Source of the DNA: Mesorhizobium terrae
GTDB taxonomy: Bacteria > Pseudomonadota > Alphaproteobacteria > Rhizobiales > Rhizobiaceae
Reading direction: 5' to 3'
Length of the DNA: 64,000 nt
NCBI RefSeq assembly: GCF_008727715.1
Contig: NZ_CP044218.1
Coordinates: 3,303,501-3,367,500, forward strand
Positions 15,518 through 23,648 of the stretch are shown here, one piece after another; positions within the stretch are counted from its first letter, which is position 1, and each line of letters begins with the position of its first letter. A program made the translations under genes and the position numbers. The notes beneath the pieces are model-generated. The model saw nothing but the letters and a program-made list of their open reading frames with translations. It was not told where the DNA came from and did not search any database.

Positions 15518-16009
15518 ATGACCCAGCACCATATCGACAAGACCGACGACGTCGGCATCCGCCTGCGGCGTTCGCTGGCGGAGGAGGTCGCGGCGCCGGC
15601 CTGGCCCGACGGTTTTACGCTGCGCCCCTTCCAGGCAGCCGACGCGCGCGCCGTGCATGCGCTGCTCACCCAGACGCTGGCGAAGGAAGAAGAGAATTTC
15701 GACCTCTGGTGGGCGCTGCATTCCAGCGACGCCGAATACGACCCGGCGCTGTGGTTCGTGGTGGACGGCCCCGACGGGCGGCTGGCGGCGGTGGCGCTGT
15801 GCTGGACCAGCGACTATCTCAAATATCTGGCCGTGCACCCCGACGCGCGGCGCAACGGACTGGCCGAAGCGCTGCTGCTGCACGTCTTCGCCACCTTCAA
15901 GGCGCGGGGCGCCGCCCGCGTCGACCTGAAGACGATGGTGGTCGAAAACGCCAACGCCATCCGCCTCTACCGCCGCCACGGCATGGTCGAGGTGGACTGG
16001 GCGGGGTGA
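15518..16009 (+). CDS. GNAT family N-acetyltransferase
   Basis: 163-aa acetyltransferase. The GNAT fold is shown by YLAVHPDARRNGLAEALLLH (acetyl-CoA binding motif A) and the C-terminal VVENANAIRLYRRHGMVEV. Substrate unknown. The ATG at 15518 follows an AGGGATGAGCGG stretch, 34 bp after the lytic transglycosylase gene. Confidence 0.85.
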   Translation: MTQHHIDKTDDVGIRLRRSLAEEVAAPAWPDGFTLRPFQAADARAVHALLTQTLAKEEENFDLWWALHSSDAEYDPALWFVVDGPDGRLAAVALCWTSDYLKYLAVHPDARRNGLAEALLLHVFATFKARGAARVDLKTMVVENANAIRLYRRHGMVEVDWAG

Positions 16010-16014
16010 GAAGC

Positions 16015-16360
16015 GGTCCGCTTCAGCGGACGAAAAGCCAACTGCTTGGCTTTTCGAGCTTCGAACGCCCCGAGTTTACGAGGGGCCGGGAAGCGGTTCG
16101 CCGCAGGCGAATTGGAAGGTCCGGTGGACCTTCCAAAGGGCTCGAACGCCCGAGGCAGTAGCCGAGGGCTGGGGGCGGTCCGCTAACGCCCCGAGTTTAC
16201 GAGGGGCAGGGGGCGGTCCGGTGGACCTTCCCAAGGGCTCGAACGCCTAAGGCCATAGCCGAGGGCCGGGGGCGGCATCACTCCGGCCCTTCGCTGTCGC
16301 TTCGGGCGTTCGAAACTCGAAAGCCAAGCAATTGGCTTTTCGTCCGCTAACGCGGACCAT
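16015..16360. repeat. Intergenic palindromic repeat mosaic
   Basis: Two palindromes of one family bracket a tandem duplication. CGAAAAGCCAA, 4 nt, TTGGCTTTTCG lies at 16031-16056. A near copy with one A deleted and a GCAA loop lies at 16318-16342. Both are next to GCGGTCCGC/GCGGAC inverted repeats. Between them a segment beginning CGCCCCGAGTTTACGAGG occurs twice (from about 16067 and 16189). Each copy continues with GGTCCGGTGGACCTTCC, AAGGGCTCGAACGCC and TAGCCGAGGGC. A third copy of the palindrome lies at 19868-19893. Confidence 0.85.
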
Positions 16361-16699: not shown

Positions 16700-17434
16700 T
16701 GTCGAACTCCCGGGTAAGCGCGCGGCCCGTCGCCGCCACGCCCGCTTTCGCGTCTGGCCGTTGAAAAAGGGGTGGGAAGCGGGGCGCCGGGTCGGTGCCT
16801 CTTAGCAAACAGTACGTGGCGCCTTCCGGGCGCCCCGCCAGTGTTCTTGCCCCGGACCGACCTCGCCGTCATTCGCGACGGCAGACTTCGGACCTCAAAG
16901 CCGCCATTCGCGGCAGCCGGGTTTTTCCAGGGCCCGGACTTAGGGCTCGTCACCAGACAGCGCCACCGTTAGCGCTGCCAGTCCGGCACCGGCGCCCTCC
17001 CTGATACCCGGTGCGCACCAGGTTCCCGTGAGGGCGATGGGCCGATTGTGGCGTGTGCCCCGAACGTGTGGACAAATCCGGGCGTGGTTTTCGTGCGGTT
17101 TTCGGCAAGGGACTGAACGGACAACGTTCTTTCTTTGAGCTTGCGTCTTCCTCCACGCATCCAATCCACATCCTGCACCGCGCCGACGCATCAGCGCTCC
17201 GGCATGGATTCCCGACACGCTCCGCTCGTTCCTCGCTCACGCGGTCGGGAATGACGGAGTTTTGCGGGGTGCGCCACGTGGCGCCACGCTTGTGCGGGGG
17301 GGAGTCGCGTCCGCCGCGTCGGTCCGCGGCGACTGCCTGCGCGGGCCGTCGCCCACGTCGGCAAAGCCCGCGACGCGCCGCCGCGCTTGTCTGCCGCTGC
17401 CGCCCGTCTATCCTGCCGCGAAACAGGGGAGACG
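16700..17434. other. Long intergenic stretch, no supported gene
   Basis: No reading frame here has convincing protein character. The only clear structure is the palindromic repeat at 17208-17252. Confidence 0.5.
17208..17252. repeat. Short palindromic intergenic repeat
   Basis: ATTCCCGAC (17208-17216) and GTCGGGAAT (17244-17252) are perfect inverted arms around a CGCTCCGCTCG-type spacer. This form is common in rhizobial intergenic regions. Confidence 0.6.
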
Positions 17435-17890
17435 ATGATGGACTGGAAACTGCCGAGACAAGGCGCCTGCCGCTGCGGGCGCGTCAAGATTACGGTGAGT
17501 GCGGCACCCTTGGTGACCATGGCCTGCCACTGCACCGGCTGCCAGAAGATGAGCTCTTCGGCCTATTCGCTGTCGGCCGCCATTCCGGCCGAGGGTTTTG
17601 CCGTCACCGAGGGCGAGCCGGTGATCGGCGGCCTGCACGGCGCCGACGCGCACCATTATTTCTGCAGCCACTGCATGAGCTGGATGTTCACGAAAGCCGA
17701 GGGCATGGACTGGTTCGTCAATGTGCGCCCGACGCTGCTCGAAGGCGCGGGCGACTTCGCGCCCTATATCGAGACCTGGGTGGGTGAAAAACTGCCCTTC
17801 GCCGAGACGGGCGCGGTGAAAAGCTACGAGGCGCTACCGCCGATGGAGGATTATGAGGGGTTGATGAAGGAGTTTAGGGAGTGGGGGTGA
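17435..17890 (+). CDS. GFA family (glutathione-dependent formaldehyde-activating-like) protein
   Basis: 151-aa zinc-binding protein of the GFA/CENP-V family. It has CRCGRVK, CHCTGCQK and a CSHCMSW pair, the usual cysteine set for two zinc sites. Family members bind glutathione and related thiols; formaldehyde activity is not implied for every member. Start ATG at 17435 (or 17438) after AGGGGAG; translation from 17387 is unlikely. It is the last high-GC gene before the AT-rich reverse transcriptase block. Confidence 0.85.
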   Translation: MMDWKLPRQGACRCGRVKITVSAAPLVTMACHCTGCQKMSSSAYSLSAAIPAEGFAVTEGEPVIGGLHGADAHHYFCSHCMSWMFTKAEGMDWFVNVRPTLLEGAGDFAPYIETWVGEKLPFAETGAVKSYEALPPMEDYEGLMKEFREWG

Positions 17891-18066
17891 GTAGATAGAA
17901 AGCGTACTAAATCCCTACATAGAAATCAATCAATCTCGGTATAATCCAGGTAAATAAACTATACTACATCTCTGCGCACCCAATTGATTGTAGCTTATAT
18001 AGTATTATTGGTGAAAATTAACCGACGAGATAGCTGTATTAATTTTCAAGTACCTACAAAAAAAGC
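17891..18066. other. AT-rich structured region 3' of the reverse transcriptase gene
   Basis: Markedly AT-rich, without a gene. It holds two inverted repeats: CAATCAAT near 17926 with ATTGATTG near 17983, and GAAAATTAA with TTAATTTTC around a 17-nt loop (about 18013-18047). It may be a terminator or processed RNA of the RT transcript, or a remnant of the insertion junction. Confidence 0.4.
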
Positions 18067-19632
18067 TCATGCATTGAGAACTATTTCGGCTACTAAATGA
18101 TTCATGCTGGATGAATTGCCAAAATACTTAAGTCTATGATTTCGAGAGATTTTCTTCAGCCCTCTCGATCCCACTGCAGATGACCATGCCAACCAATCAG
18201 ATTGCCCGCTGACGAGATAATCATTTCGTAACTCCGGCAATCCAAATCGTGTATCCGGTATCTCTAGAATCTTTGCCTTGGATATAGAAGTTGCGGAGGT
18301 GTGATTGAACAATTTGTCTATTAATTCTGCCGTGTTTTTCGTTTGCATTAAGAAATCTTCAAGTATTGAAGATATCCAAAATAGTTGAAATTCCATTAGT
18401 CTCCTTTTTGGCTTTAATACGGAAAGTATTGTTTCAGAAAGAAGCTCTTTATCTTTGACCGATGCGCAAAAATTATAAACGCTCTTTGTGAGGTGTGGAA
18501 ATCTTTCCAATATATACGGAAGTCTTTTCTCGACTTTACCGGAATTTTCTCTCATAATTGTTAGTATTAATTCTGCATCTTCTTCTTCTATGGTTTGATT
18601 TTCGAGTATTGTATTTATGTAGTCCATTTCCTTTTCGCTTAAGGGGGATTTGAAAAGATGTTCCTTCAGTATCTCGTTGCCGGACTCGTCGTATCCTTGC
18701 GTTATAAGTATCCTTCGTCTCTCTAGGAGTTTCTGTTTTACCTCATCGATTTCGTTCTCCATTTTTAGGAGAGTGGCGTTGCCCTTGTGGGTCTTAAGCG
18801 GGTTTACTGATAAGTTCTTATCGCCGAGGAGGCGTTGAATGGCTTGGAAATCGTCGTCAAGGTCTTCAGCTCTATCGGAAAACAGATAGAAGTCATCCAT
18901 AAAGCGAACAATTTTCTTGGATCTAAGCCCGTGATAATTATCAACAAATCGAATGAAGTCGTTTCCAATCATTTTGGTTGGGTATAAGCCCTGCGGGAGG
19001 CAGTCGACAGATATCCCAGATTTTATCTGTCTGAGCATCTGGCCTAGGCCTTCGGCGTCCGCATCGGATGCGCCAAGTTCGGAAAACCAACTTACGAGGT
19101 CGTGATGGTAGATGTTGTTAAAATATGACGCAACATCGAAGCTCATAGAGTATTCGTATTCACTCGTATACTCAGATATAGCGCCCTTGAAGGCTTTGTA
19201 AGCGGACGTCGGCGATATCGGCGCCCCTTCCTGAAAACGGTATCCGTAGTGAGACCTGCTTATTATGTGAGGTTTGCGAAATAAATTCTTATTCCGAAAT
19301 ATTATGTCATATATATAATATTCAGATATAGCATCCAATTTTACAGTTCTTCTCAGGTGATTTTCCGGTTTCGCACCGTAAACTCTTATTTGTGATATAA
19401 AAGAGTAATGATTATTGTCCTTATCTAGGCATTTGTTGATATAATCTTTAACTAAGCTCTCTCCATTGTTGATAAGAAACTTGTTCGTGTTCAATGGAAA
19501 CAGTGTTCTGCCGAAATCTTCGTTGTAGAACTCCAGCGTGCTTCCCATCGGTATAGTAGGCGATTTCGACGAGAGGGTTTTCGCTGGTTTAGCGGGTTTC
19601 GATTTTGCTGCTGTATTTGACTTGGCAATCAT
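18067..19632 (-). CDS. Abi/UG-type reverse transcriptase, putative phage defence
   Basis: 521-aa RNA-directed DNA polymerase-like protein. RT motifs are in order: FDVASYF (motif A Asp near residue 166), LPQGLYPTK (about 212) and RFMDDFYLF (the YxDD box as FMDD, about 244). A helical C-terminal extension follows (about 330-400, HEAT-like), ending with DWLAWSSAVGSRGLKKISRN. There is no group II maturase/HNH domain. This architecture fits abortive-infection (AbiA/AbiK/AbiP2) and 'unknown group' defence RTs; I cannot assign the subgroup. The ATG at 19632 follows GGAG; ATG 19650 and TTG 19686 are alternatives. The base composition is foreign: 19/60 G+C in the line at 18301. No partner protein gene adjoins it. 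Confidence 0.85.
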   Translation of the reverse strand: MIAKSNTAAKSKPAKPAKTLSSKSPTIPMGSTLEFYNEDFGRTLFPLNTNKFLINNGESLVKDYINKCLDKDNNHYSFISQIRVYGAKPENHLRRTVKLDAISEYYIYDIIFRNKNLFRKPHIISRSHYGYRFQEGAPISPTSAYKAFKGAISEYTSEYEYSMSFDVASYFNNIYHHDLVSWFSELGASDADAEGLGQMLRQIKSGISVDCLPQGLYPTKMIGNDFIRFVDNYHGLRSKKIVRFMDDFYLFSDRAEDLDDDFQAIQRLLGDKNLSVNPLKTHKGNATLLKMENEIDEVKQKLLERRRILITQGYDESGNEILKEHLFKSPLSEKEMDYINTILENQTIEEEDAELILTIMRENSGKVEKRLPYILERFPHLTKSVYNFCASVKDKELLSETILSVLKPKRRLMEFQLFWISSILEDFLMQTKNTAELIDKLFNHTSATSISKAKILEIPDTRFGLPELRNDYLVSGQSDWLAWSSAVGSRGLKKISRNHRLKYFGNSSSMNHLVAEIVLNA

Positions 19633-19726
19633 ACGGAACTCCACGAACATTAAGCCCAATGTATCCGACCTATTTTTTCCTATCAAGTTTTATAAATACT
19701 GATGTTTTACTTGGTGATGATGGGTG

Positions 19727-19735
19727 CCCCCCCCC
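19727..19735. repeat. C9/G9 homopolymer upstream of the RT gene
   Basis: Run of nine C (G on the gene strand), about 95-103 bp before the RT start codon, in the presumed promoter or leader. Such tracts can vary in length by slippage. Confidence 0.5.
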
Positions 19736-19867
19736 TCTTTGCGTTCCAGGTACCTGTCACGGGCTTGATCGTTCGCGGCACGAGTATCCGTTGGATGAAT
19801 GAGCACCCTACGTACATTCTATACGAACGCTACTTTCCAGCCTTGTAGATTCGGGACGTTCATCGCT

Positions 19868-19893
19868 CGAAAAGCCAAGCAACTGGCTTTTCG
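19868..19893. repeat. Palindromic repeat, third copy
   Basis: CGAAAAGCCAA, GCAA, CTGGCTTTTCG: same family as 16031-16056 and 16318-16342, with a GNRA-type tetraloop. It is placed on the opposite side of the RT segment. Confidence 0.8.
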
Positions 19894-19951
19894 TTCGCTG
19901 CGCAGACCGCTCTTCACCTCGTGAAATGAGGCGCTCACGGCGCTCTTCCTC

Positions 19952-20147
19952 CTCCCCTTGTGGGAGAAGGTGGCTCGACGCGTTAGCGTCGAGACGGATG
20001 AGGGGTGTTGGACGGAGCGCTTGCTCGAAAGATCGAGGCGATGTGAGGTGCCGTTGCGAAACGTCCCGTTTCTTCCAGCACCCCTCATCCGACTTCGCCA
20101 GCGGCGGCTTTGCCGCCGGGCTCGGTCACCTTCTCCCGCAAGGGGAG
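19952..20147. repeat. MITE-like long inverted repeat element
   Basis: The outer arms 19952-19972 and 20127-20147 (CTCCCCTTG...AAGGTG versus CACCTT...CAAGGGGAG) match as inverted repeats at 20 of 21 positions. The inner arms 19995-20011 and 20075-20091 (GATGAGGGGTG versus CACCCCTCATC) match at 16 of 17. A transcript would fold into one long hairpin. This element type is widespread in Rhizobiales intergenic DNA. It lies directly downstream of carB. Confidence 0.75.
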
Positions 20148-20159
20148 AAGGGAAAGGGC

Positions 20160-23648
<3,489 letters not shown>

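Follow-up and report, generated by a model that had tools for sequence, protein, structure and literature searches.

What is a reverse transcriptase (RT) gene made of AT-rich DNA doing in a high-GC bacterial chromosome, and how might its product work? The question is raised by a 64,000-nucleotide stretch of the Mesorhizobium terrae genome (contig NZ_CP044218.1, positions 3,303,501 to 3,367,500), hereafter called the window, in which a preliminary description had pointed to a foreign, stand-alone RT of the Abi/UG type with a likely role in phage defense, but had been unable to place its subgroup. We find that this gene, drt5, encodes with near certainty an intact DRT5 reverse transcriptase, and that it very likely makes up on its own the cargo of a defense hotspot of the replacement type, which follows a core gene that we take from its sequence to be carB, in Mesorhizobium and related genera. 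Sequence, predicted structure and genomic site thus support the general assignment made before, including a probable role in defense, whereas the unplaceable subgroup and the supposed peculiarity of the active-site motif did not hold. What that reading did not include is the cargo slot that recurs where carB ends.

The 521-residue open reading frame (ORF) and the motifs FDVASYF, LPQG and FMDD noted earlier are all present. The frame runs from an ATG at 19632 to a stop codon that ends at 18067; an alternative TTG lies 54 bases further upstream and would give 539 residues, but we kept the shorter protein because a GGAG sequence stands 6 bases before the ATG. Two libraries of hidden Markov models assign the protein to DRT5: the NCBIfam equivalog model NF041750 scored 704.1 bits (cut-off 550) over its positions 1-483 of 484, and the PADLOC model Drt5 scored 684.7 bits, with the next family, RT_UG20, at 103.6 bits. 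We presume that DRT5 corresponds to UG16 and belongs to class 1. Among 7,997 scored candidates, 975 proteins were related at E ≤ 1e-10. The best 119 besides drt5 itself are 48-66% identical to it, and several of them are named antiviral reverse transcriptase Drt5 in their source; the relatives listed include Drt5 of Mesorhizobium carmichaelinearum.

Residue conservation was read from 118 aligned sequences, two of the 120 listed having been dropped as shorter than 470 residues. The catalytic aspartates D166, D246 and D247 are present in the window protein and invariant in all 118. So is F244 of FMDD, and the phenylalanine in place of the tyrosine of YxDD, previously singled out as a peculiarity, is therefore a signature of DRT5. 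The protein matches the DRT5 model over its full length and shares its FMDD motif and helical C-terminus, with no difference that would define a separate family; it has an N-terminal tail, which spans 24-81 residues in 14 of 25 aligned relatives and 0-5 residues in the other 11. It is a further member of a known family, DRT5, which a 2026 overview counts, with DRT1 and DRT8, among the three of nine DRT types that have no established mechanism (PMC13213688).

In line with the preliminary description, nothing assigns the gene to retrons, group II introns or CRISPR systems. St85, the only retron model among the matches listed, gave 21 bits against a cut-off of 235, the group II intron maturase model gave 30.6 bits against 300, and the PADLOC models of CRISPR-type RTs reached at most 43 bits. 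Between positions 16000 and 22000, an Rfam search up to E=1 returned three matches, all to miRNA families and all below their gathering scores; it thus contained no intron family and no msr/msd RNA beside drt5, with the limit that Rfam lacks some retron RNAs.

The contrast in base composition is also real. The 1-kb bins at 18-20 kb have GC contents of 0.39 and 0.46 and all other bins of the window lie between 0.54 and 0.71; the 539-residue version of the drt5 frame has a GC content of 0.40. This AT-rich DNA can be refined to a defined insert of 2,269 bp, since homology to three close relatives (G055, G054 and G005) breaks at its two borders: it ends with the carB stop codon (or 2 bases past it against G005 and 31 against G055) and resumes at 17890-17891, at the stop codon of a convergent gene that is presumably GFA-like. 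In G055 and G054 the site is empty, with a gap of about 40-50 bp between the two genes (48 and 59 bp by the edges of the protein matches). G005 carries a different AT-rich segment at the site, with a gene for 438 residues and a GC content of 0.41.

The same site is occupied in much of the genus. A match to the carB 3′ end was obtained for 97 of the 99 genomes, in one of them split over two contigs, with weaker matches in G007 and G057 (E ~1e-19). We compared the downstream regions of 95 genomes, leaving out these three and the genome of the window itself. Around the carB stop codon the median GC content falls from 0.645-0.66 in the preceding 400 bp to 0.49-0.55 in the first 1.8 kb and returns to 0.635-0.65 from 2.4 kb onward. 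An AT-rich gene, defined as an ORF of at least 140 residues with a GC content below 0.52, was found within 2.4 kb of carB in 52 of the 81 loci that reach 7.1 kb (out of 96, window included), against three of 81 between 2.4 and 4.8 kb and one of 81 between 4.8 and 7.1 kb. The AT-rich block, traced in 56 of the 81 loci and limited by construction to 3.8 kb, has a median length of 2.1 kb (5-95% range 1.0-3.15 kb) and starts at a median distance of 0 bp from the carB stop (75th percentile 56 bp). The cargo ORFs (at least 140 residues, GC below 0.54) number 93, come from 60 of the 96 loci and fall into 55 sequence groups.

Occupancy was also scored across taxa, this time by a GC threshold set for each locus by its own composition. 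Filled slots made up 51 of 80 loci in the genus and one of 40 in an order sample, of which one locus itself belongs to the family; of 40 loci fetched from the family's other genera, three were too short and 16 of the remaining 37 were filled (Fisher's test, p = 8e-12 for genus against order sample and 0.045 for genus against family). The 40 family and 40 order loci were taken from among the better-ranked carB matches rather than at random, and therefore represent nearer relatives. Within the genus, other UG/Abi RTs occupy the slot in five of the 95 other loci.

To describe the cargo we scanned 40 proteins from 31 loci besides the window with PADLOC (threshold 1e-10 for the first set, 1e-5 for the rest); they had been chosen by hand, the longest and one per group first, and five loci were included through the RT search. 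Matches were obtained for 22 of the 40 proteins, or 19 of the 31 loci, and for 14 of 26 loci when the five found by RT search are set aside. DRT6 was matched in four loci (364-535 bits), one of them, L096, holding only a 387-residue part, and a UG13b RT in another match (439 bits). The remaining matches (scores in bits) were to dCTP deaminase (526), bSEFIR (330), AbiLi with AbiLii (328, 78), AbiU (224), PDC-M70A with a weak dGTPase (201, 33), NsnA/PD-T4-2 (198, 120), Hydrolase/Hydrolase-TM (161, 132), an AriA/Old-like ATPase (93), SIR2-pAgo-like (75), pAgo-like (73) and PDC-S49 (72), together with weak ones to ThsA-like (36), dGTPase and DarG (29, 27) and LmuB (27). Pfam domains in the 93 cargo ORFs include HSDR_N, RVT_1, AAA, AIPR, GmrSD, HD, HEPN, SIR2, NACHT and RloB. 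Ten cargo proteins from nine loci in other genera of the family gave six matches, to AbiU, PDC-M34B, PDC-M70A and NsnA and, weakly in two cases, to dGTPase and pAgo. None of 40 control proteins encoded 2.6-7.1 kb downstream was matched, a weak control because 15 of them are copies of one core gene.

The cargo loci with no PADLOC match were L067, L074, L077, L078, L080, L108, L119, L120, L121, L142, L143 and L147, although Pfam recognizes a NACHT domain in L074. Unmatched genes from seven of these, L067 (5947-7263) and L143 (5117-7390), scanned at 1e-10, and L080 (865-2271), L121 (861-2861), L119 (793-2280), L142 (1417-2832) and L120 (5839-7083), scanned at 1e-5, are candidate new defense genes; Pfam detected a helix-turn-helix in L143 only, L080 having been scanned just within the tally of 93 ORFs. 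Separately, eight genomes share at the slot a gene for 256-262 residues, which is in some the only cargo and in others one of several (L102 500-1288, L109 2577-3365, L125 4633-5421, L150 2673-3461 and four more loci). HSDR_N_2 gave a weak match in the one such gene tested singly and has eight members in the 93-ORF tally.

Table 1. Features of the drt5 locus in the window (positions within the 64,000-nucleotide stretch).
Feature	Position	Strand	Evidence or remark
drt5 coding sequence, intact, 521 residues	18067..19632	-	NF041750 704 bits (cut-off 550); PADLOC Drt5 684.7 bits
RT motif A FDVASYF, residues 165-171, catalytic D166	19120..19140	-	D166 in 118/118 relatives
LPQG motif, residues 212-215	18988..18999	-	Q214 and G215 invariant in 25/25
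FMDD motif, residues 244-247, catalytic D246/D247	18892..18903	-	F244, D246 and D247 in 118/118
Lys/Ser/Ala/Pro-rich N-terminal tail, probably disordered, about residues 1-27	19552..19632	-	predicted local distance difference test score <50 for residues 1-26
Inserted segment, 2,269 bp, carB stop to stop of convergent gene	17891..20159		homology break against G055, G054 and G005
carB, core gene flanking the slot	20160..23648	-	ORF; 3′ end matched in 97/99 genus genomes
Convergent gene, presumably GFA-like, other flank	17387..17890	+	89-93% protein identity after carB in G055, G054 and G005
Dispersed repeat with 11-bp-stem hairpin (19868-19893), inside insert	19850..19918		14 matches in the window's own genome (G000), this one included; no drt5 noncoding RNA
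Dispersed intergenic repeat, inside insert	19918..20154		also matched elsewhere in G000 and in many genomes of the genus

DRT5 itself is rarely found. At E ≤ 1e-50 it occurs in five of 146 genus genomes, in two of 385 genomes of a class sample (that of the window included) and, within an order sample of 347, in the window's genome only. The other four genus copies lie away from carB, on other contigs or at distances of 0.2 and more than 1 Mb. The copies in L005, L006, L007, L008 and L009 appear in their contigs as split, interrupted or matched in part, through either decay or assembly error. One genus genome (G051) has both DRT5 (L031, contig C14) and, at the carB slot, DRT6 (L087 5279-6940, contig C8).

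This rarity would suit the idea that drt5 is foreign DNA under no selection, which came to lie next to carB by accident and plays no part in defense. We consider this improbable. The frame is intact with all catalytic residues in place, the same slot carries other UG/Abi RTs and further defense genes, and its occupancy stands at 52 of 81 loci against three and one in the next two intervals. How the cargo arrives is a separate matter. The insert ends at two stop codons and no mobility gene appears among the domains listed, and for these reasons we favor, as the most likely route, exchange of the cassette through homologous recombination in the core genes on either side. Movement by an unrecognized site-specific or transposable element could account for how abruptly the AT-rich block begins at the carB stop and for the dispersed repeats inside the window insert; no integrase, resolvase or transposase is present, however, among the 25 commonest of the 58 Pfam families in the 93 cargo ORFs, and we regard such an element as unlikely.

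Fixed core-gene positions that hold different defense systems in different isolates are known from cDHS1 and cDHS2 of Pseudomonas aeruginosa, which have median lengths of 26 and 6 kb, are flanked by a tRNA-Pro or a tmRNA gene and contain mobile genes at 71% and 53% of their sites (PMC10250203). The blocks at carB differ from these in their median of 2.1 kb and in having no mobility gene among the domains listed, and the slot appears closer to the 'replacement islands' of the same text, in which the idea of a replacement-type island is already found (PMC10250203). The sole tRNA or tmRNA gene of the window lies at 53 kb, and none is near the slot. We found no earlier description of the carB slot by title or abstract start in the open literature, a search of partial coverage in which some queries were blurred by the word 'carbon'.

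We then considered how DRT5 might act. An AlphaFold2 model confirms the helical C-terminus described before and predicts two lobes, one RT-like and one helical, a likeness to the single-gene enzymes of solved structure DRT6, DRT4, AbiK and Abi-P2, with which 397-445 residues align at 11-15% sequence identity; the alignments with all four extend over both lobes. The absence of families from the structural match lists was given no weight as evidence. We lean slightly toward a stand-alone, oligomeric, protein-primed and untemplated polymerase of the AbiK/DRT4/DRT6 kind that would act by abortive infection. Upon phage infection such an enzyme, acting alone, would build single-stranded DNA attached to itself, and this DNA may harm the infected cell or tie up phage replication factors, so that the spread of the phage would be stopped. 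The analysis shows the family, the intact active site, the stand-alone layout, the site with its turnover and, in the model, the two-lobed fold; we infer activity, priming mode, template independence and the role in defense.

The alternative is that DRT5, like DRT2 and DRT9, copies a noncoding RNA into a defined cDNA, the template being encoded next to the gene, contained in its mRNA or supplied by the host. Its chemistry is listed as not established (PMC13213688), an AbiK-type priming tyrosine is not conserved, and the 288 nt upstream of drt5 fold better than shuffled sequences (z -2.29; 3 of 200 shuffles as good). However, part of the upstream fold is a hairpin of a dispersed repeat with a second copy in the window (near copies at 16031-16056 and 19868-19893, 3.8 kb apart), and the upstream segment was rejected as an RNA partner when its best hairpin proved to belong to this genus repeat, with 14 matches in the same genome. 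The sequence downstream of drt5 has a fold z of 0.05, and the DRT5 model aligns over its full length with single-gene enzymes. We also compared flanking sequence from 19 DRT5 loci, taking 600 nt on the upstream side of the conserved core and 400 nt on the downstream side, with partial matches (for example L006) extrapolated, and found shared sequence only within the close pairs L001/L005 and L027/L028. As far as this small set reaches, the lack of common flanking sequence and the contribution of a dispersed repeat to the upstream fold speak against an RNA next to the gene like those of retrons, DRT2 and DRT9, and we hold an RNA template in general to be doubtful.

Nor did a protein partner emerge. 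On two Roseobacter plasmids an ATP-binding gene, which we take to be HerA-like, lies directly upstream of drt5 (L027 331-2142; L028 1-5992), with SIR2 and HsdR-like genes annotated further upstream on one of them; we read it as part of a neighboring system or defense island. By eye, no similar gene was seen among the listed ORFs of the window and of the 16 remaining DRT5 loci, to which no domain search was applied. The published DRT5S and DRT5L are likewise set aside as direct evidence on DRT5, as a collision of names: they are treated as class 3 RTs, a class whose defining feature is a nitrilase or phosphohydrolase domain alongside the RT (PMC13275509), and the window protein, with RVT_1 as its sole Pfam match above cut-off, resembles them in name only. 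They are probably the small and large forms of UG5, and a different family from the one that NCBIfam and PADLOC call DRT5.

Several results weigh against our interpretation. Twelve of the 31 scanned hotspot loci lack a PADLOC match. The absence of a noncoding RNA rests on flank similarity within a small set that had no positive control. Foldseek TM-scores to the Abi, DRT4 and DRT6 chains are modest (0.34-0.57), and the Z score of group II RT domains (19.2) almost equals that of DRT6. In AbiK and Abi-P2 the priming tyrosine (Tyr44 and Tyr61) lies between fingers helices 2 and 3 (PMC9508834). We matched DRT5 residues 70-100 to this segment by the order of helices in the model, not by superposition, and no priming tyrosine of the AbiK/Abi-P2 type is conserved there in the 118 sequences: Y85 is tyrosine in 94 and phenylalanine in 19, and T96 (99%) is the sole hydroxyl residue conserved in at least 90%. 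With these points taken into account, we still think it probable that DRT5 is the single cargo of a carB defense slot and acts as a polymerase of the AbiK/DRT4/DRT6 type. A bolder version, in which the carB 3′ end in Mesorhizobium and its sister genera is a dedicated slot for one small AT-rich cassette at a time, usually a single system, exchanged scarlessly between the two flanking stop codons, the unmatched cargo is unrecognized defense and DRT5 primes from a position other than the AbiK tyrosine, seems to us evenly balanced.

The locus supplies the DRT5 family with an undamaged representative, a model that is confident over the full length, and a handful of residues that might serve for priming. 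The carB slot belongs to a large bacterial group that includes nitrogen-fixing symbionts, and it offers a predictable address for finding new defense genes; with one to three genes to a cassette, any locus could be cloned almost as it stands. The slot is also a setting in which the movement of chromosomal defense genes without visible mobile elements can be tested.
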